This document shows, one piece after another, positions 5,591 to 25,955 of a stretch of DNA of 30,995 nucleotides. The first letter of the stretch is position 1, and each line of letters opens with the position of its first letter. The position numbers and the translations under genes are program-made. Location: the IMG/VR virus record IMGVR_UViG_3300021093_000252, positions 1 to 30,995 of that record; one strand, 5' to 3'. The stretch is from a virus. The notes beneath the pieces were generated by a model that saw only the letters and a program-made list of their open reading frames with translations, was not told the DNA's origin and ran no database searches.

Positions 5591-7150
5591 TTATTTTAGA
5601 GTCGTATATTCTCCGTTTATAAAGTTAATGTGTTGAGCCTTACCGTCCTCGTGAATGATCACGTGAGACTGTAACCATGCGCTGGCTCCGATGTTGTATC
5701 CGACTCTTAATTGAGTGGTGGTACCGACTGCCAAGGCTCCGTCCTTTCTGCCAGGAGAGTGGTAGTGTCCAACTATGATCTTATGGTTAAGACGTCTAAA
5801 TTGTTGTAAGCTTCCTCGGCTTCCGTTTGAGCCGATGTCTCCATGCTGACCTAATTCCCAGCCATTAACTATATAACTATCACTTCTACCTAGGGTTATG
5901 AAGTGCGGATATTTATTATTTATCACCCATGGAATCACCCCGTTTGGTGCCTCTCCGCTTAGGATCGCCGAGGAATATTGCATGTACTCTAGCGAGTTTT
6001 TAGGAGTGACGGTCTTACGCCAGTCAGTGTTCTTTAACCACCTGTCCACGAAATCGTCGTGATTGCTTCGAACGATCACAGTATTGTACTCCTCAAAGTC
6101 GCTAAGACCCTCTAATAACTGATCGATCTCCTTCTTTAGAGAATTGGTACCCTCTAACTCCTTTTGATACTGTAAAAACGGATCCTTTTCCTCATGGTGA
6201 CTGATTGACTTTCCATCAAACACGTCGTGTAGGATCACATGATCGGGATTAAGTTCTTCCATGATCTCAAAGGTCTTATTGACGACCCTAGTGTCATGAC
6301 TGCCATAATGTAGGTCTCCCCAAACTATTGCCGAGATCTTATTGATTCTGGTCACATCCTCTTTTTCAACTCGATAGAACAGATCAGTAAAGCTACCGTC
6401 GTCCGTAGCTGTGACCTGTCTCATAAAAAAGATCTCACCGTTCTTGATCTCAACGATCACGAATCCAAGAGTGTGATGAAACTCTCCCTTTTTACCTGAT
6501 TTAGAATCGGTGTAGTTTTTGATAGTGCAGGCACCGGTCGTTACCATCATCTTAGGCGCGTTTCCCTCCAGTACTGGAATCATCTCCATCTGTACCTTGG
6601 GTGAACCGAAAACGCAAGAATTGATACCGCTTAGTCCTTCCATACCCGTCATTGGATTCACAGCAGTCGGTTGGATCTTTACGTCAGACATGATGGATAA
6701 GTACTTATGAATGTCATGACGATTCGCATCAAGATAACTCAATACATCGTCGGCCCAAACCTCTTCGTATTCTTGACTAGTGGACCAGATACTCGTGGGA
6801 TTTTTATATCGACCTGCGATCACATGCACATCAGCGTTAATGAATTCGGCATACGCCTTGATGTTATTTAAAAAGTCTGTGTGTACTGGTGTGTTGTTTT
6901 GTGCCCAAGTTATGATGAACCTCTTAGTCTTTTTGTTATATTCCCTAGCTTGTGCAAGCTTCAACTGCGGTGACTCTTCAGCGGTTTTGGTACTAAAGTT
7001 AAGTTTTGTGATCCAGTTGTTGATTGTTCTAGTCGAACACTCGAATTTTTCAGAGAGACCAGTTATCCTTTCGTCCCAGGAAAGATCTCGGTTGTAATAT
7101 GTCTCACAGATGTAAAGTTTATCGGATTCTTCAAGTTCATTAAACTTCAT
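5591..7150 (-). CDS. HTH-metallophosphatase (calcineurin-like, phage T5 A1-like)
   Basis: The 519-residue product has a helix-turn-helix-like N-terminus (about residues 25-50, with CSTRTINNWITKL) and a C-terminal calcineurin-like phosphoesterase domain. The metal-binding motifs are in order: GDLHYGSHD (278-286), HDVFDG (308-313), RSNHDD (361-366, in the position of the usual GNHD), GQHGD (434-438) and GHYHSPG (461-467). These residues bind two metal ions in the family and support phosphodiester hydrolysis. A similar layout is known for T5 A1-type proteins, which take part in host DNA degradation, so a role in nucleic-acid degradation or processing is plausible. The middle third (about residues 60-260) is not recognised. 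The HTH suggests it binds DNA. The start is the only ATG before the conserved HTH, and a TATAAT-like run lies in the gap upstream. Confidence 0.75.
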   Translation of the reverse strand: MKFNELEESDKLYICETYYNRDLSWDERITGLSEKFECSTRTINNWITKLNFSTKTAEESPQLKLAQAREYNKKTKRFIITWAQNNTPVHTDFLNNIKAYAEFINADVHVIAGRYKNPTSIWSTSQEYEEVWADDVLSYLDANRHDIHKYLSIMSDVKIQPTAVNPMTGMEGLSGINSCVFGSPKVQMEMIPVLEGNAPKMMVTTGACTIKNYTDSKSGKKGEFHHTLGFVIVEIKNGEIFFMRQVTATDDGSFTDLFYRVEKEDVTRINKISAIVWGDLHYGSHDTRVVNKTFEIMEELNPDHVILHDVFDGKSISHHEEKDPFLQYQKELEGTNSLKKEIDQLLEGLSDFEEYNTVIVRSNHDDFVDRWLKNTDWRKTVTPKNSLEYMQYSSAILSGEAPNGVIPWVINNKYPHFITLGRSDSYIVNGWELGQHGDIGSNGSRGSLQQFRRLNHKIIVGHYHSPGRKDGALAVGTTTQLRVGYNIGASAWLQSHVIIHEDGKAQHINFINGEYTTLK

Positions 7151-7195: not shown

Positions 7196-9070
7196 TTAGA
7201 CAACCTCCTCTGAATCTTCCTGCTTTTGGTCAGGCTCACTAAATCGTGCGTCCTGGTTCATTTCGTTCACTCTAATGTTCTGTCCTACTTCCTTCTGTAA
7301 GTTAAAAAACTCTGCTGAAACTGATGCCGGCGTCTCCTTCTTAAACTCTTCAAACTTCGAATCCTTAATTAGCTCAAGTATTTCCTCTGACTTTACGAAG
7401 CTTGGCAGCTCCACTAGTTTAAAGTCCTTGGATATTCTCAATGGGATATCCCTCTTCTTGATGTAATCAAACTGTAGAGCATAGTCTTTTACTCGACGAT
7501 CAGTCGTTCCCCATAGGATCGGTTCGTACTTGGGTCTAAGTTCTCTTATTATGTCAGAGATCTGCCCGCTAGGGACGATCATGACGTCGACGATCAGTTC
7601 CGGATATTCCTGTTGCACCTTGTTTAACATGAGTCTAGTTGTCGCAAGAGAAAAAGGAGACTTTTTAGTCTGCACGTCCCTTTTTATAGCCACTAGAACG
7701 GTCTTGTTACCGTTGTTCTCCTTTAGTGCCTTGGCTGCTTTGATGTGACCCATCGTCACCGGTTGAAATCCTCCAATCAGGATGTTTACTCTTTGTGCCT
7801 CAGTCGACTCGCCGATCTTTTTTGCGTGTTCGACTTCGCTTAGGGTCATCCAATCGTTCGGTGATCCGATAAACTCACTAAAGCTCGGAAAGAGCCCTTC
7901 GTAGACCGCATCTCCCATGATTATGTTTTTAATCTTTTGTACGATTAAGTTAAGCTGTGAGATCATTTCTGGAGTAAAGAATCCAGCGCTTGATCTTTTT
8001 CTCACCTTTCTAAAAAAGTTAAGCAATACTTTATAGATCTCCAAATTAGTCGCGTTCTTGCTGATCAGGTTTACCACTTCTGGATCTCCTACCAGGTTCA
8101 AGTCTAACTCAAACTCAGGTCTTTTTAAGTATTCAGGAACGTCTAGCTCAAGTCCATCGTACTTTTGAGAATATTCATTTAGGAAATCCTTAAATATCTG
8201 ATTAATCAGACCGATGTATTTCTGCTCATACTGATCTGAGTCCCCAATCATCTTACGTAGGTTCTCTATGTCGTACATCTCAAAGTGATTCATTAGATCA
8301 ATGACGATCAACCAGATATAATCTTGTGAGTTTGAGGTTTTTGGTTGTGCTTCTTGCGATCTTTGTTGAAATATCGGATCCACAAGTTTTGCTAAGAATG
8401 CCTCGTTTTCAGAGTCCTCCCCATAGAACCTAAACACCAAAGTTTCCAAGTCCCTATCTGAAAAGGTTGACTTCTCATCTGGGCACAGGACTGAGATGAT
8501 GTATTTAGTAAAAGAAGTGGTCTTAAACTTTTCCTCAAGCTCCTTTTGTTCAGTGTATATGAATTCTAGGATCTTGCTCTTTTGTTCGTCGTCAAGCTTG
8601 CCCTCAAATAGGATCGGCGGTGCCTCTACTTCTAGGTAATTTGCCCACCTCGTGAGCTGTTCCCTTGACTGTAGAGTCTCAGTGATCTTGCCGTCATCGT
8701 CTAATCTATGAATGTATGAAAGTACCAAGTTATTCTTAGGCAGCTCTGCTCTTTTACTCGATAGAGTATCGCTCTTAGTAAAGTATTCAAAACCAAAAAA
8801 GAAGTTTGCTGGAATTCTTTGTCTCTTTTCAATGGGTAACTCATGAAAGTGCTTTATTGCAGGATTGTAGTACTTCATCAGCACCTGATCAACATAGGTG
8901 ATTTCACCTGATTTCTTAAAATACTTGAACTGATCGTCCTGTGTCTTTTTTACTCCAAAAAAGGCTCCATCCATCTTTTCATTAATGATGACGTATTGAT
9001 TAAGTAGTCCATTTAAGAAGGACTCGCCCCTCTTTTCGTAGACTTCCTTTAAGTTGTTTATTCCTGCCAT
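7196..9070 (-). CDS. Polynucleotide ligase-like / NMN-adenylyltransferase-like fusion protein
   Basis: This 624-residue protein seems to join two nucleotidyl-transfer domains. The N-terminal part has covalent nucleotidyltransferase motifs of RNA/DNA ligases: EKMDG (31-35, Lys32 the likely adenylated residue), FFGFEYF (91-97, motif III-like), DLETLVFRF (207-215, motif IV-like, with Thr where Gly is usual) and AKLVDP (227-232, motif V-like). The C-terminal part has GGFQPVTMGH (433-442), the HxGH-type nucleotide-binding loop with Thr in the first position, and later SPFSLATTR (471-479), as in NadM/NMNAT and cytidylyltransferase folds. About 190 residues between them are unrecognised and helical. 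Possible jobs are RNA end sealing combined with NAD or nucleotide salvage, or adenylate transfer in repair. It lies 11 nt after a putative virion gene. The domain calls are motif-based; the combined function is inference. Confidence 0.65.
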   Translation of the reverse strand: MAGINNLKEVYEKRGESFLNGLLNQYVIINEKMDGAFFGVKKTQDDQFKYFKKSGEITYVDQVLMKYYNPAIKHFHELPIEKRQRIPANFFFGFEYFTKSDTLSSKRAELPKNNLVLSYIHRLDDDGKITETLQSREQLTRWANYLEVEAPPILFEGKLDDEQKSKILEFIYTEQKELEEKFKTTSFTKYIISVLCPDEKSTFSDRDLETLVFRFYGEDSENEAFLAKLVDPIFQQRSQEAQPKTSNSQDYIWLIVIDLMNHFEMYDIENLRKMIGDSDQYEQKYIGLINQIFKDFLNEYSQKYDGLELDVPEYLKRPEFELDLNLVGDPEVVNLISKNATNLEIYKVLLNFFRKVRKRSSAGFFTPEMISQLNLIVQKIKNIIMGDAVYEGLFPSFSEFIGSPNDWMTLSEVEHAKKIGESTEAQRVNILIGGFQPVTMGHIKAAKALKENNGNKTVLVAIKRDVQTKKSPFSLATTRLMLNKVQQEYPELIVDVMIVPSGQISDIIRELRPKYEPILWGTTDRRVKDYALQFDYIKKRDIPLRISKDFKLVELPSFVKSEEILELIKDSKFEEFKKETPASVSAEFFNLQKEVGQNIRVNEMNQDARFSEPDQKQEDSEEVV

Positions 9071-9081
9071 GAATTTTTCTT

Positions 9082-9645
9082 TTAGATTTCTGGTTCAGTA
9101 GGTTTCGGTGCTGGTTGAGCAGGTTCAGTCGCAGGTTTAGCTTCCGGTTCTGGCTTTTCTTCGGGCTTCGGTGCTGACATTGCTTTTCTAATACTTTCAG
9201 AGTCAATGCTTATCGATAAGCTACGCAAGTTATCAGAATCTTCAGGATTAGCCTCAAAGTATTCGATTACTTTTTTCAAATTGACGTTATTCGCCTCTTC
9301 GCCAAACCCTCCAGCATCCTCGATCTTTTTTCTAAGGTTTTTAGCCGCTTTCCAGGTTCCGCCGTAGCTTAGTGACCAGCAGTAGAATCTCACCTGTTCC
9401 TGTTTACTGTCATAATAGTGCAAAATATCCTTGATTCTTTGAATAGCTCCATTTGCATCACGATATGTCGTTGCTCTACCTAAGTTATCTGAAGGAACTC
9501 CAAACCTTACTTGATCTGATAGAACCTCCATTAGTTCCTCAATTCGAGTGATCAGCTGATCTGCTGGATAACCCTTTAGAGGAGAAGCAGCTTCTTCTGC
9601 TTCCTTAATGTATTGTAAATAGCTTGGTATGTATTTGCTAGCCAT
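9082..9645 (-). CDS. Putative internal head protein with capsid-targeting-like N-terminus and Pro-rich tail
   Basis: The 187-residue protein starts MASKYIPSYLQYIKEAEEA, a capsid-targeting-like peptide with an IKE|A site. A helical middle with an aromatic cluster (QEQVRFYCWSLSYGG) follows, and the last ~35 residues alternate Pro, Glu and Ala and are probably disordered. No enzyme motif is visible. AATAAATAA lies 17 nt upstream of the ATG, as for the other putative cargo genes. It sits between the P-loop kinase gene and the ligase fusion gene and is likely transcribed with the latter. Function unknown; the N-terminus and promoter make packaging into the head the best guess. Confidence 0.6.
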   Translation of the reverse strand: MASKYIPSYLQYIKEAEEAASPLKGYPADQLITRIEELMEVLSDQVRFGVPSDNLGRATTYRDANGAIQRIKDILHYYDSKQEQVRFYCWSLSYGGTWKAAKNLRKKIEDAGGFGEEANNVNLKKVIEYFEANPEDSDNLRSLSISIDSESIRKAMSAPKPEEKPEPEAKPATEPAQPAPKPTEPEI

Positions 9646-9661
9646 CCTAAAATATTTTTTA

Positions 9662-9670
9662 TTATTTATT
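9662..9670 (-). promoter_or_regulatory. Late-promoter-like 9-mer AATAAATAA
   Basis: Minus-strand AATAAATAA ends 17 nt before the ATG at 9645. It overlaps the stop of the kinase gene (9669), so the late transcript would start at that gene boundary. Confidence 0.5.
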
Positions 9671-10274
9671 ATGACCCTTGACCTCTATTTATTAGATCGT
9701 CTAGCATTGTATTGAATTGGGTTGAGCTTGTCTCATCAAAATGGTTAATCATTCGATTAAACTCATTACTTCGACTCAAATCAGTCATTTGAGGCATAAA
9801 CTCCGAGAATACCCTTTCGAAGAGTTCTTTTTCGCGATCAGCATTCTCAAAATTACCAAAGTAGTCTTTTATTCCACGACTGGCTTCAACACCATCGGCT
9901 CTTTCTACATAGAGTACTTTACTCATTTGATAAAGCTCACTGTCGAGTATCTTCTTGAACTCTTCAAGAAGTCTAAGCTGTCCCATTCTTTCCCGATAGA
10001 TCGACCACACGTATGCTGAAAAGATGCAACGATCAAAAACTAGGATGTGATCCTTTAATAGGGTCTGATTGAGTTCAAGAATGGTAAGGACGTTTGCGAT
10101 GCTAAAATAGTGAACGCCTGGACCGGTTTCTTGATCTCTCATCTTGAGATCATCAACGTACTTTGCGAATTGAAACTTATAATAGTGAACCTTTGGATTT
10201 TGATTCTGTTCAAAAAATCGATCGATTAAAAAAGTTTTTCCGCTCAATCGGTGGCCTTCGATTATAACTATCAT
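9669..10274 (-). CDS. P-loop nucleoside/nucleotide or polynucleotide kinase
   Basis: The 201-residue protein opens with MIVIIEGHRLSGKTFLIDRF, a Walker A loop (EGHRLSGKT, residues 6-14) in the form typical of thymidylate and deoxynucleoside kinases. FDRCIFSAYVWSIY (80-93) matches the DR-x(3)-S-x-Y lid/substrate motif of that group. Length fits dNMP kinases (about 200 residues). It would phosphorylate a nucleoside, a nucleotide or a polynucleotide 5' end using ATP. Its ATG overlaps the stop of the HAD phosphatase gene (ATGA, 10271-10274), so the two are translationally coupled. Coupling to a HAD phosphatase, with a ligase-like gene downstream, recalls the T4 Pnkp/Rnl1 repair set, but the motif form fits a nucleotide kinase at least as well. 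Confidence 0.7.
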   Translation of the reverse strand: MIVIIEGHRLSGKTFLIDRFFEQNQNPKVHYYKFQFAKYVDDLKMRDQETGPGVHYFSIANVLTILELNQTLLKDHILVFDRCIFSAYVWSIYRERMGQLRLLEEFKKILDSELYQMSKVLYVERADGVEASRGIKDYFGNFENADREKELFERVFSEFMPQMTDLSRSNEFNRMINHFDETSSTQFNTMLDDLINRGQGS

Positions 10275-10858
10275 CGTAATTGTATTCTTCTTGATTCGCC
10301 TGAACTAAAGTCATAGAGTGAGATCACCTTAGACTTATCGACAAACTGCATGTTTAGTATTATCATATCATCTAGACTCCTTATGGTTTTTAATCTAGTC
10401 ACCTTTTCATAGAAGAAGTCCTGATACTTTCTCAACTGCTCTAGTGAATCCTCATAGATCGCGATCTCCTTGATGTTGGGCAAGTTGCCTAATTCTTCTT
10501 CGAGAATCGCGACCTTTTCGCTCACCCGACCTAAGAAATACTTTTCATCGAACGTTATTCCATGCATCTCTAAAAGACGATCGGCTTCGGGTCGAAGCTC
10601 CTCAGTCCTGTGAGTTATCAGGATCACTCGTGCATTGGGATCATCGCTTGCGGCTTTCCAGTCTTCATATACTGGGCCGATCAATTGAATGTTATGTATG
10701 TCAGGATCCATTGAGCTCGGATGATCGTAGAAAGAGTATGGGTCGGGAAATGTCAGGCCCGAATAGAGTCTCTCTACTGAAAATCGATCGGTGTATCCCG
10801 GCATCCTAAATATCGTCTCATCGAAATCAAAGACTAAAAGTCGAGTTATATTATTCAT
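10271..10858 (-). CDS. HAD-superfamily phosphatase (SAK-HAD type)
   Basis: The product (about 195 residues from the ATG at 10858) starts MNNITRLLVFDFDETIFRMP. FDFDETIF is the HAD motif I with the nucleophile and acid/base aspartates. RVILITHRTEE is the motif II region (Thr in HxT context), and NIKEIAIYEDSLEQL gives the acidic motif IV (YED). The 'DFDETLFRxP' form is typical of the HAD domain of the so-called Swiss-army-knife RNA repair proteins, so a 3' or 5' nucleotide phosphatase is plausible. I chose the ATG immediately before the motif I strand. A possible upstream in-frame start (10897) would run into the intergenic region containing the divergent late-promoter-like element. The stop overlaps the kinase start by 4 nt. 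Confidence in the HAD fold is high; the substrate is unknown. Confidence 0.75.
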   Translation of the reverse strand: MNNITRLLVFDFDETIFRMPGYTDRFSVERLYSGLTFPDPYSFYDHPSSMDPDIHNIQLIGPVYEDWKAASDDPNARVILITHRTEELRPEADRLLEMHGITFDEKYFLGRVSEKVAILEEELGNLPNIKEIAIYEDSLEQLRKYQDFFYEKVTRLKTIRSLDDMIILNMQFVDKSKVISLYDFSSGESRRIQLR

Positions 10859-10871
10859 ACTATATTCTATT

Positions 10872-10880
10872 GATAAATAA
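10872..10880 (+). promoter_or_regulatory. Late-promoter-like 9-mer GATAAATAA
   Basis: GATAAATAAC lies 22 nt upstream of the ATG at 10903, in the gap between the divergent HAD and small virion-candidate genes. It points to the plus-strand gene. Confidence 0.5.
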
Positions 10881-10902
10881 CAAAAAGTTTTATCCAAAAA
10901 AG

Positions 10903-14683: not shown

Positions 14684-14941
14684 TTATTTTTGTCTTTTTA
14701 TTACATTACGAAGTATTTCAACAGTCTTATTGTCGAATTTACCTGTAACTTTGGGAGCATGTGTTTCTTGAAATCCTTTAAGTGCCTCAACTGTTTCTGA
14801 GTCAAGTTTTCCGGTCTGAGACACACCCAACACGTTTTGAAAACTTTTCAATTCTTCCTCAGTTATGATTGGACCTCCAGGACCAGCGACTTCGTTTACA
14901 AACTGACCGAATGTTTTTACGTGGTTCTTATTCATCATCAT
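14684..14941 (-). CDS. Small protein: capsid-targeting-like N-terminus plus peptidoglycan-binding-like domain
   Basis: The 85-residue protein has two parts. Residues 1-18 (MMMNKNHVKTFGQFVNEV) closely resemble the T4 capsid-targeting peptide and offer a VNE|V cleavage site; AGPGGP follows. Residues 27-85 fit the peptidoglycan-binding domain type 1 pattern: LKSFQNVLGVSQTGKLDSET, VEALKGFQETH and VTGKFDNKTVEIL, i.e. two 'TGK.D..T' turns with the FQ between them. That fold normally anchors wall hydrolases to peptidoglycan, yet no catalytic domain is attached. Two late-promoter-like 9-mers precede the ATG. The combination suggests a protein carried in the virion that may contact the host wall during entry. 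The fold call is motif-based. Confidence 0.6.
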   Translation of the reverse strand: MMMNKNHVKTFGQFVNEVAGPGGPIITEEELKSFQNVLGVSQTGKLDSETVEALKGFQETHAPKVTGKFDNKTVEILRNVIKRQK

Positions 14942-14953: not shown

Positions 14954-14962
14954 TTATTTATC
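14954..14962 (-). promoter_or_regulatory. Late-promoter-like 9-mer GATAAATAA (distal copy)
   Basis: Minus-strand GATAAATAA 12 nt upstream of the ATG at 14941, overlapping the end of the phoH gene. Confidence 0.5.
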
Positions 14963-15719
14963 TATTCAGCCTTTCAGAATTTTCGATCTTTTCAAACACC
15001 TCTTCCAATTTCATGATGATAGGGTGGCGCACGATATCCTCCTTAGACAACTGTGCTATTCCAATCTCCTCTATCTCTACGAAATGTTCGATCAGGATCT
15101 CAAGAGCGCTCTTCTGACCCTTATTGACCGACTTCTGTTTAATATCTCCCAAGAATACCATCTTGGAATTACTGCCGATCCTGGTCAATAGTGTATGTAG
15201 GTGATCCTTCGCTATCTGTTGAGCCTCATCGATCAGGATGATAGCATTGTCTAGGGTCACACCTAATGCGAACTTGATCGGTAGGATCTCAATGTTTCCG
15301 TTTGCCTTTAGAGACTCGGTCGCCTGCTTGCCGATCACCTTGTGAAAATTGGAAATAAATGGATACATGTACATCTCCATCTTCTCCTCTAAGGTTCCCT
15401 TTAAGTAACCTATCTCCTCATCCTTAGGCACGTTAACTGATTTTATTAAGATGATCTTTTTGTAGGTTCCAGGATCCTCCTTTAAGTACTTGAGTGCTCT
15501 AGCACAGGAGAGATAGGTCTTACCCGTTCCTGGAGGTCCAGTTATGATTGATATGTCATGGTCCTCAATAGCGGTTAATGCATCCTTTTGGGCTCTAGAT
15601 TTACACTTTATCTCTATCTTGTTTGAGAACATCTTAGCTGCGGTTAGTGCCTCACGCTCTCTTTGCCAGGTTTCGATATCTTCTAATTCCTCTTTGCTTA
15701 GTTTTTTTCTCTGTGCCAT
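14958..15719 (-). CDS. phoH: PhoH-like ATPase
   Basis: The 253-residue protein carries the PhoH-type P-loop ATPase: GPPGTGKT (61-68), LIKSVNVPKDEEIGYLKGTL with the conserved 'P..E.iGfLpG' pattern (92-110), IILIDEAQQ Walker B (160-168) and KMVFLGDIKQ sensor I. PhoH-like proteins resemble the helicase half of RecD-like and SF1 enzymes and are thought to act on RNA. They are common in marine and T4-like phages regardless of phosphate control, so the name should not be read as a phosphate-starvation role. The gene is 3 nt downstream of an unknown gene with which it probably forms an operon under the late-type element at 16367. Confidence 0.9.
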   Translation of the reverse strand: MAQRKKLSKEELEDIETWQREREALTAAKMFSNKIEIKCKSRAQKDALTAIEDHDISIITGPPGTGKTYLSCARALKYLKEDPGTYKKIILIKSVNVPKDEEIGYLKGTLEEKMEMYMYPFISNFHKVIGKQATESLKANGNIEILPIKFALGVTLDNAIILIDEAQQIAKDHLHTLLTRIGSNSKMVFLGDIKQKSVNKGQKSALEILIEHFVEIEEIGIAQLSKEDIVRHPIIMKLEEVFEKIENSERLNR

Positions 15720-25511: not shown

Positions 25512-25955
25512 CTATTGATTTTTACCTGTACCGTTTCCTTTTTCATCACTAAATCTAACGCTAGATTTGTCTACGTCTAATTTGAAATCTCGATCTCCCA
25601 TCATTCTACCCATCGCACGTTGATTCTTTTTAGCGATCACGTTATCCTGTTTACCTGCTCTTTCCATAGAGTTCTTCATCACTTGATCCAGTGCTTGTGT
25701 CTTCATCTTCTTTTTCCAATCGCTGTGAAAGATCATGTTCATTGCTCTAGTGATGTCCACCTCTTGCACATGTCCGTCATATCGACTTGGGTTTCTAGCT
25801 GCTTTTTCATTGGCTAACTCTCTAGCTATAGCCATAATCGAAGTATAGAGTCCACCAAGTGCGCCTTGCACCATGCCTTTAAAATTAGTTAGGTATACAA
25901 CTTCTTTAGTCGATTCATTTATGTATTGATGATATGTTTTTATCTTTCTTTCCAT
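25512..25955 (-). CDS. Putative internal head protein with strong capsid-targeting-like N-terminus
   Basis: The 147-residue basic protein starts MERKIKTYHQYINESTKE. IKTYHQYINES is the closest match in this window to the T4 capsid-targeting peptide MKTYQEFIAEA, aligning residue for residue (K-T-Y-x-[EQ]-[FY]-I-x-E). It offers an INE|S processing site. The remainder is basic and helical (e.g. MKTQALDQVMKNSMERAGKQ), compatible with DNA association in the head. Its ATG overlaps the stop of the gene upstream by one base. It belongs to a run of five small genes (25512-27008 plus neighbours) that look like packaged proteins. Function after injection is unknown. Confidence 0.65.
   Translation of the reverse strand: MERKIKTYHQYINESTKEVVYLTNFKGMVQGALGGLYTSIMAIARELANEKAARNPSRYDGHVQEVDITRAMNMIFHSDWKKKMKTQALDQVMKNSMERAGKQDNVIAKKNQRAMGRMMGDRDFKLDVDKSSVRFSDEKGNGTGKNQ

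Follow-up and report, generated by a model that had tools for sequence, protein, structure and literature searches.

A phage protein family that joins an RNA-ligase-type domain to an NMNAT-type domain

RNA repair and NAD metabolism are both themes of phage counter-defence, described with different proteins (PMC7824862, PMC9503650). On the RNA side, Swiss-army-knife HAD phosphatases and calcineurin-like phosphatases are listed among the proteins that heal RNA ends together with phage ATP-grasp RNA ligases (PMC7824862). On the NAD side, large phages have NatV/NadM (NMNAT–Nudix) and NadR (NMNAT–kinase), in which an NMNAT fold is joined to another enzyme domain (PMC9503650). The protein analysed here resembles NatV/NadM and NadR in that layout, but those enzymes have no fused RNA ligase, and menderaviruses and Xanthomonas phage X1 appear to carry such enzymes in addition. 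Its N-terminal half resembles T4 Rnl2 (RnlB, gp24.1) in the fold of residues 1–240, in the positions of motifs I, III and IV, and in having a helical region after the nucleotidyltransferase domain; it differs in its low identity (~13%), its single motif-V lysine, its family-specific stretches, the attached NMNAT-type domain and the loss of the nucleophilic lysine in some lineages of the family. Both parts belong to known folds. An earlier note on this DNA knew of no characterised phage enzyme with this pair, and we likewise found no description of one in the open-access literature; as far as that literature goes, the fusion is apparently undescribed.

The fusion gene lies at 7196..9070 on the minus strand of the window, which is the full 30,995-base virus record, and is an intact 624-aa open reading frame with an ATG start; its MAGINNL start is common to 15 aligned sequences. 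Three motifs picked out by the earlier note stand at their expected places in this one chain: EKMDG, which is motif I with the nucleophile Lys32 (residues 31–35, 8966–8980), GGFQPVTMGH (residues 433–442, 7745–7774) and SPFSLATTR (residues 471–479, 7634–7660), all on the minus strand. Pfam matches and AlphaFold2 models both bear out its proposal of a ligase-like N terminus fused to an NMNAT-like C terminus, so that the two folds and their fusion are computational observations. An alignment search of viral contigs found 247 related stretches, and among the best 80 of these, which were fetched, nearly all encoded one fused chain with the same domain order, save for copies that were interrupted or cut by a contig end. 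Two independent domain matches, this conserved architecture and dN/dS values far below 1 show that the reading frame is not a chance one; the fusion protein is real and widespread, being carried by many large T4-like phages. A0A6J5NWC5 from an uncultured Caudovirales phage (623 aa) is a member of the window's family, 76% identical over the ligase half in the structural match; its UniProt name, 'Cytidyltransferase-like domain-containing protein', covers the nucleotidyltransferase domain only. One scan of genome contigs returned no cellular relatives of the fusion. Below, we refer to clade A (L077–L106), clade B (the window and its close relatives), clade C (L057–L076) and clade D (L048–L055).

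The RNA-ligase-type nucleotidyltransferase domain (residues 1–240, 8351..9070, minus strand) was recognized by Pfam, by structure matches of AlphaFold2 models and by hhalign. Pfam RNA_ligase matched residues 26–177 of the window protein with an E value of 1.3e-5 and 25.8 bits, just below the cut-off of 27, which the relatives L065 and L059 passed (29.0 and 31.4 bits). Foldseek against the PDB with the full-length AlphaFold2 model (53-sequence alignment, mean pLDDT 75) ranked adenylated T4 Rnl2 highest (E 4e-8), ahead of further RNA ligases and of CoaD and NMNAT chains. Because NMNAT-fold chains filled the VIA list for that model, the ligase half was also predicted and searched alone; residues 1–400 folded with a pLDDT of 81 and a pTM of 0.77. 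The top structural matches of this model were RNA ligases throughout (NgrRnl Z 11.5, T4 Rnl2 Z 11.2, fungal tRNA ligase 11.2, T4 Rnl1 10.3); DNA ligases ranked lower, a few DNA-ligase-type chains reaching Z 9.1 or less. A profile of T4 RnlB and four other phage ligases aligned with hhalign at E 1.8e-6, matching motif I, the motif III glutamate (E95) and motif IV (E209/T210); together with the predicted nucleotidyltransferase fold, this places the N-terminal half in a ligase family, as the earlier note had supposed. The window protein retains K32, D34, G35, E95 and K228. Its motif IV is ET in place of EG, the threonine-for-glycine degeneracy that had been read from the sequence before. In motif V a single lysine (K228) is seen across the whole family, where Rnl2 has KCK against AKLV or LLKxQQ here, an alignment made by eye because hhalign ends before motif V.

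The NAD+-dependent LigA enzymes have an N-terminal Ia domain, which we did not find in the fusion: ~25 residues precede the motif I strand, too few for a domain of that type. The earlier idea that NAD synthesis might be coupled to an NAD-dependent ligase is not supported: the N terminus is short, the nearest structures are ATP-dependent RNA ligases, and menderaviruses and X1 carry separate NadV and additional nucleotidyltransferase genes. We rejected NAD-dependent sealing with built-in NMN recycling; there is no room for an Ia domain and the structure matches lend it no support.

A helical middle domain follows (residues 248–390, 7901..8329, minus strand), delimited by AlphaFold2 secondary structure; in an alignment with megaphage proteins it is conserved also in 635–735 kb phages that have no NMNAT part. 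We do not equate it with the Rnl2 C-terminal domain, because the aligned rows mostly end near residue 240. It is joined to the C-terminal half by a linker (residues 391–424, 7799..7900, minus strand) that is predicted with low confidence (pLDDT under 50 at 388–422) and contains a conserved FPSFSEF. A capsid-targeting site inside this linker was considered and rejected, a profile built from N-terminal leaders giving the linker motif a score that was not significant.

The NMNAT-type (HIGH) domain (residues 425–597, 7280..7798, minus strand) rests on Pfam and on a VIA structure match: CTP_transf_like covers residues 431–514 at E 2.4e-6, above the cut-off, and VIA-align superposes residues 427–597 on an archaeal NMNAT with Z 16.4 over 150 residues at an rmsd of 2.3. 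The likeness to archaeal NMNAT/NadM-type enzymes lies in the fold and, in clade A and in a menderavirus NMNAT, in canonical motifs; the first of these reads GRFQPFHxGH in clade A. In contrast, the active site is degraded in the window, in clades C and D and in the Campylobacter and Vibrio lineages, and the partner domain is a ligase fold rather than a Nudix or ribosylnicotinamide kinase domain. The NCBIfam NMNAT equivalog and subfamily models gave best scores of 30 bits or less against cut-offs of 112–449, clade A included. In the window protein the GR arginine is replaced by G434 and the first HxGH histidine by T439, and SxTxxR is absent, which makes NAD formation by this half doubtful. Two AMP-transferring activities in one chain, as once proposed, would therefore fit clade A, in which both sites look canonical, and not the window protein, with its lost NMNAT residues and its ET in motif IV. 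Judged from these residues, a working NMNAT is doubtful in the window protein and a working ligase is plausible.

Across the family the two active sites have decayed separately. In a 65-row table, K32 was present in 54 rows, motif IV EG in 34, an HxGH-type double histidine in 28, the GR arginine in 21 and S/TxxxxR in 20, whereas all 19 clade A rows kept EKMDG, EG, the motif-V lysine, GR, HxGH and S/TxxxxR. The other 11 rows have N, D, R or V at this position. An IQ-TREE tree built from the ligase and middle parts, whose deepest joins are uncertain owing to some long branches, requires five changes at K32, of which well-supported branches force at least four. Clade C kept the ligase motif set and lost SxTxxR, with HxGH also lost in part of the clade; clade D mostly has asparagine at K32 and mostly retains HxGH. 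The fusion of the 462-kb phage LR756500 (L022) has asparagine at the motif-I lysine and nearly canonical NMNAT motifs; a second protein with an EKLDG motif is encoded directly upstream of it (L022, 10704–11969). In the 635–735 kb phages, the ligase-like and middle parts stand alone and the lysine is missing. Where dS could be measured, Nei–Gojobori dN/dS was ~0.02–0.13 for each of the three domains, even in lineages whose motifs are damaged, and ~0.04–0.08 for each of them within the window's own lineage, so that every part is still under selection, whether catalytic or not. The conservation and the residue losses are thus both observed by computation.

These losses bear most directly on the idea that, in the window lineage, both halves are non-catalytic and form a nucleotide-binding sensor, sponge or scaffold for AMP, NAD or ADP-ribose-type ligands. 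Different lineages have lost key residues in both halves while selection remained strong: clade C gave up its NMNAT site and kept the ligase, clade D mostly gave up the ligase lysine, and the 635–735 kb phages retain ligase-like and middle domains that have neither the lysine nor an NMNAT part. Such a role is harder to reconcile with K32 and the KxDG pattern, which are kept in 54 of the 65 rows, and with clade A, which retains every motif tested in both halves. We consider it unlikely, though far from negligible; the chief alternative to a role at RNA ends is a protein that senses nucleotides or is carried in the virion.

Most clade C proteins (L058–L073) carry ~350 extra C-terminal residues (about 620–1000), which resemble a PD-(D/E)XK nuclease in stretches such as GDIAAGEINIEVKG. 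A gene of similar appearance follows the fusion in Vibrio phage Va1 (L157, 7459–8253); profile comparison with hhalign gave no link between the clade C C terminus and similar-looking neighbour genes.

The observed gene context fits an earlier suggestion of RNA repair best; RNA as the substrate, adenylyl transfer as the reaction and any role of the NMNAT half are our inferences. Upstream of the fusion, clades B and C share an order of HAD_SAK_1 phosphatase, P-loop kinase and then usually a gene of ~187 aa, and a metallophosphoesterase is often found downstream. In the window, all on the minus strand, the HAD phosphatase (10271..10897) is a HAD_SAK_1 (Swiss Army Knife RNA repair) protein with PF10307 over the cut-off and DFDET intact; clades B and C keep it beside the fusion, and it was not detected there in clade D, most of whose members have lost K32. 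The calcineurin-like metallophosphoesterase (5591..7150; phrog_1745/phrog_221) lies downstream and is a conserved neighbour in clades B and D. Near the fusion there are also a helicase gene, a baseplate-wedge-like gene and a UvsY-like gene, the last matched at E 0.075 in the window and 0.0011 in L079; this general neighbourhood resembles that of T4 rnlB (rnlB, uvsW, uvsY, 25). The two phosphatases, this T4 rnlB-like setting, a ligase fold closest to RNA ligases and ahead of DNA ligases, the aligned Rnl2 motif positions, the complete motif sets of clade A, the recurring pairing of the two folds and purifying selection on all domains argue for a role at RNA ends.

Other features argue against such a role. 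The whole family has one motif-V lysine, the window has ET in motif IV, and K32 is lost in L046 and L054, which belong to the same broad clade as the window. Many of the searched contigs hold other RNA_ligase proteins with better scores, so sealing may be covered elsewhere. RlaP, the Pol-beta family that usually partners such ligases, was found in 2 of the 20 records searched, both megaphages. The P-loop kinase (9669..10274, minus strand), which clades B, C and D all have beside the fusion, shows an intact P-loop and DR motif and has a profile match to the PDB deoxynucleoside kinase 6ybh at E 7.7e-6; it had no match in the phage collection. We rejected its identification as a polynucleotide kinase, since the profile search points to deoxynucleoside kinases, and nucleotide salvage therefore fits it better than RNA kinasing.

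Genes with a Pol-beta-like GD(I/V)D(I/L) motif were seen near the fusion or split pair in several genomes (L103, 7016–7990; L079, 6604–7545; L157, 3516–4670; L152, 3387–4307; L155, 3140–4150). Those of Va1, phiKT1024, menderavirus and X1, among them the last three loci, form one family, to which hhalign could not join the clade A gene. The genes tested had no Pfam nucleotidyltransferase-family match, and we found no description of a Pol-beta pairing in the open-access literature. Elsewhere in the window, 14958–15719 encodes a PhoH-like protein (Pfam E 8e-58).

The gene directly upstream of the fusion (9082..9645, minus strand, 187 aa) has an N-terminal leader, YIPSYLQYIKEA, resembling T4 capsid-targeting sequences (PMC9026906). 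The fusion or its partners might be packaged in the head, injected and act early. T4-type leaders of the form F/YxxF/Y-h-x-E are enriched at N termini (p ~2.5e-4 in each of two genomes), and a gp21-type prohead protease was matched in 20 of 25 records. Cyanophage cytidyltransferases, called NMNAT homologues, are often present in virion proteomes (PMC10665884), and that of P-TIM68 begins with a T4-type leader. The fusion itself, however, starts with MAGINNL and has no N-terminal leader ending in a gp21 cleavage site of the kind found in T4 internal head proteins; its linker motif is not leader-like either, and CP220 gp026, a distant relative, is unmentioned in the text of the CP220 paper. Virion carriage is a minor rival, and we judge it very improbable. 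Two other window genes have F/YxxF/Y-h-x-E leaders (14687–14941 and 25515–25955), and related genomes (n = 2) show the enrichment.

The NMNAT half could alternatively make NAD+ against NAD-depleting defences, with the ligase half as an accessory. Clade A, menderaviruses and X1 have canonical NMNAT motifs and those of L022 come close, a nucleoside-kinase-like gene is a neighbour of the fusion, and NadV-type PRTase genes occur in 8 of 25 records. NadV is missing from most records, though these may be incomplete; the NMNAT site is degraded in the window, and clade C lost the site yet kept the fusion. Moreover, Stenotrophomonas menderavirus Ps15 and X1 already carry NadV and separate nucleotidyltransferase proteins of 352–374 aa besides the ligase-linked NMNAT; for Ps15, NadV and NatV are both reported (PMC9025141). 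Separate NAD-salvage genes in these phages make simple NAD salvage unlikely, and we regard it as rather improbable.

A wider search with the menderavirus NMNAT as query (166 aa, GRFQPIHKGH, SATEVR) matched Campylobacter, Vibrio, Xanthomonas and Stenotrophomonas phages, with single-chain pairing in Campylobacter (15 records) and Vibrio phages (6 records). CP220 gp026 (YP_009169160.1, 503 aa), Va1_166 (QAU04508.1) and a phiKT1024 protein each combine a ligase-like domain, with EEKYDG or EHKTDG and then EGxxL, and an NMNAT-like domain in one chain; the first two are annotated 'hypothetical'. They are distant from the window protein (shorter, at 484–503 aa, with a different linker and middle region), and hhalign of the window-family profile with the CP220/Va1 ligase half gave E 9e-5. 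In the deposited sequence of Campylobacter phage IBB35 (HM246721; L151, 4866–6300), a frameshift between the domains has led to annotation of the fusion as two genes; relatives such as CP220 have it intact. Ps15 and X1 have a 268–286 aa KxDG protein encoded directly upstream of a canonical NMNAT gene, the two genes overlapping by 4–8 bp. The motifs KVDG/KLDG and EGV(I/V)I suggest that these proteins may be ligase-like; hhalign and Pfam gave no ligase match for them. Nothing else points as strongly to joint action of the two folds as this recurring pairing, fused or adjacent.

A bolder reading is that the protein is a new kind of RNA-end enzyme of phages, its RNA ligase and its NMNAT-type enzyme both working on one RNA end. 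5'-Adenylated ends made by the ligase might, for instance, be swapped for NAD-like caps or incorporated into them, or the NMNAT half might provide a built-in cofactor supply for sealing. The two folds recur in one chain in large-phage, Campylobacter and Vibrio proteins and, judged by their motifs, as overlapping menderavirus and X1 genes. We think a joint RNA-end enzyme of this kind distinctly improbable.

The reading that we place first, and on which we are evenly poised, is an RNA-end sealing or adenylating protein with an auxiliary NMNAT-fold domain. The ancestral protein, in the state of clade A, would act at RNA ends that the neighbouring phosphatases and kinase would first trim. The ligase half would take AMP from ATP onto the motif-I lysine and pass it to a 5'-phosphate end, thereby sealing or capping it, and the NMNAT-fold half may, as part of this task, supply or handle NMN/NAD or a related group as the adenylated nucleotide. 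In the window lineage, the ligase half, which kept K32, probably still binds or transfers AMP, and the NMNAT half has probably become a binding or regulatory domain. With most key residues of that half gone, the window protein is probably an RNA-end repair protein and not a two-enzyme NAD factory.

Proteins filed as 'hypothetical' or 'cytidyltransferase' now have a usable alignment. Each active site has decayed independently of the other, so that the family offers a natural experiment as to which half is important. Since the two folds are recurrently linked in cultured phages, a direct test, with RNA ends and NAD-type nucleotides offered to one protein, is possible.
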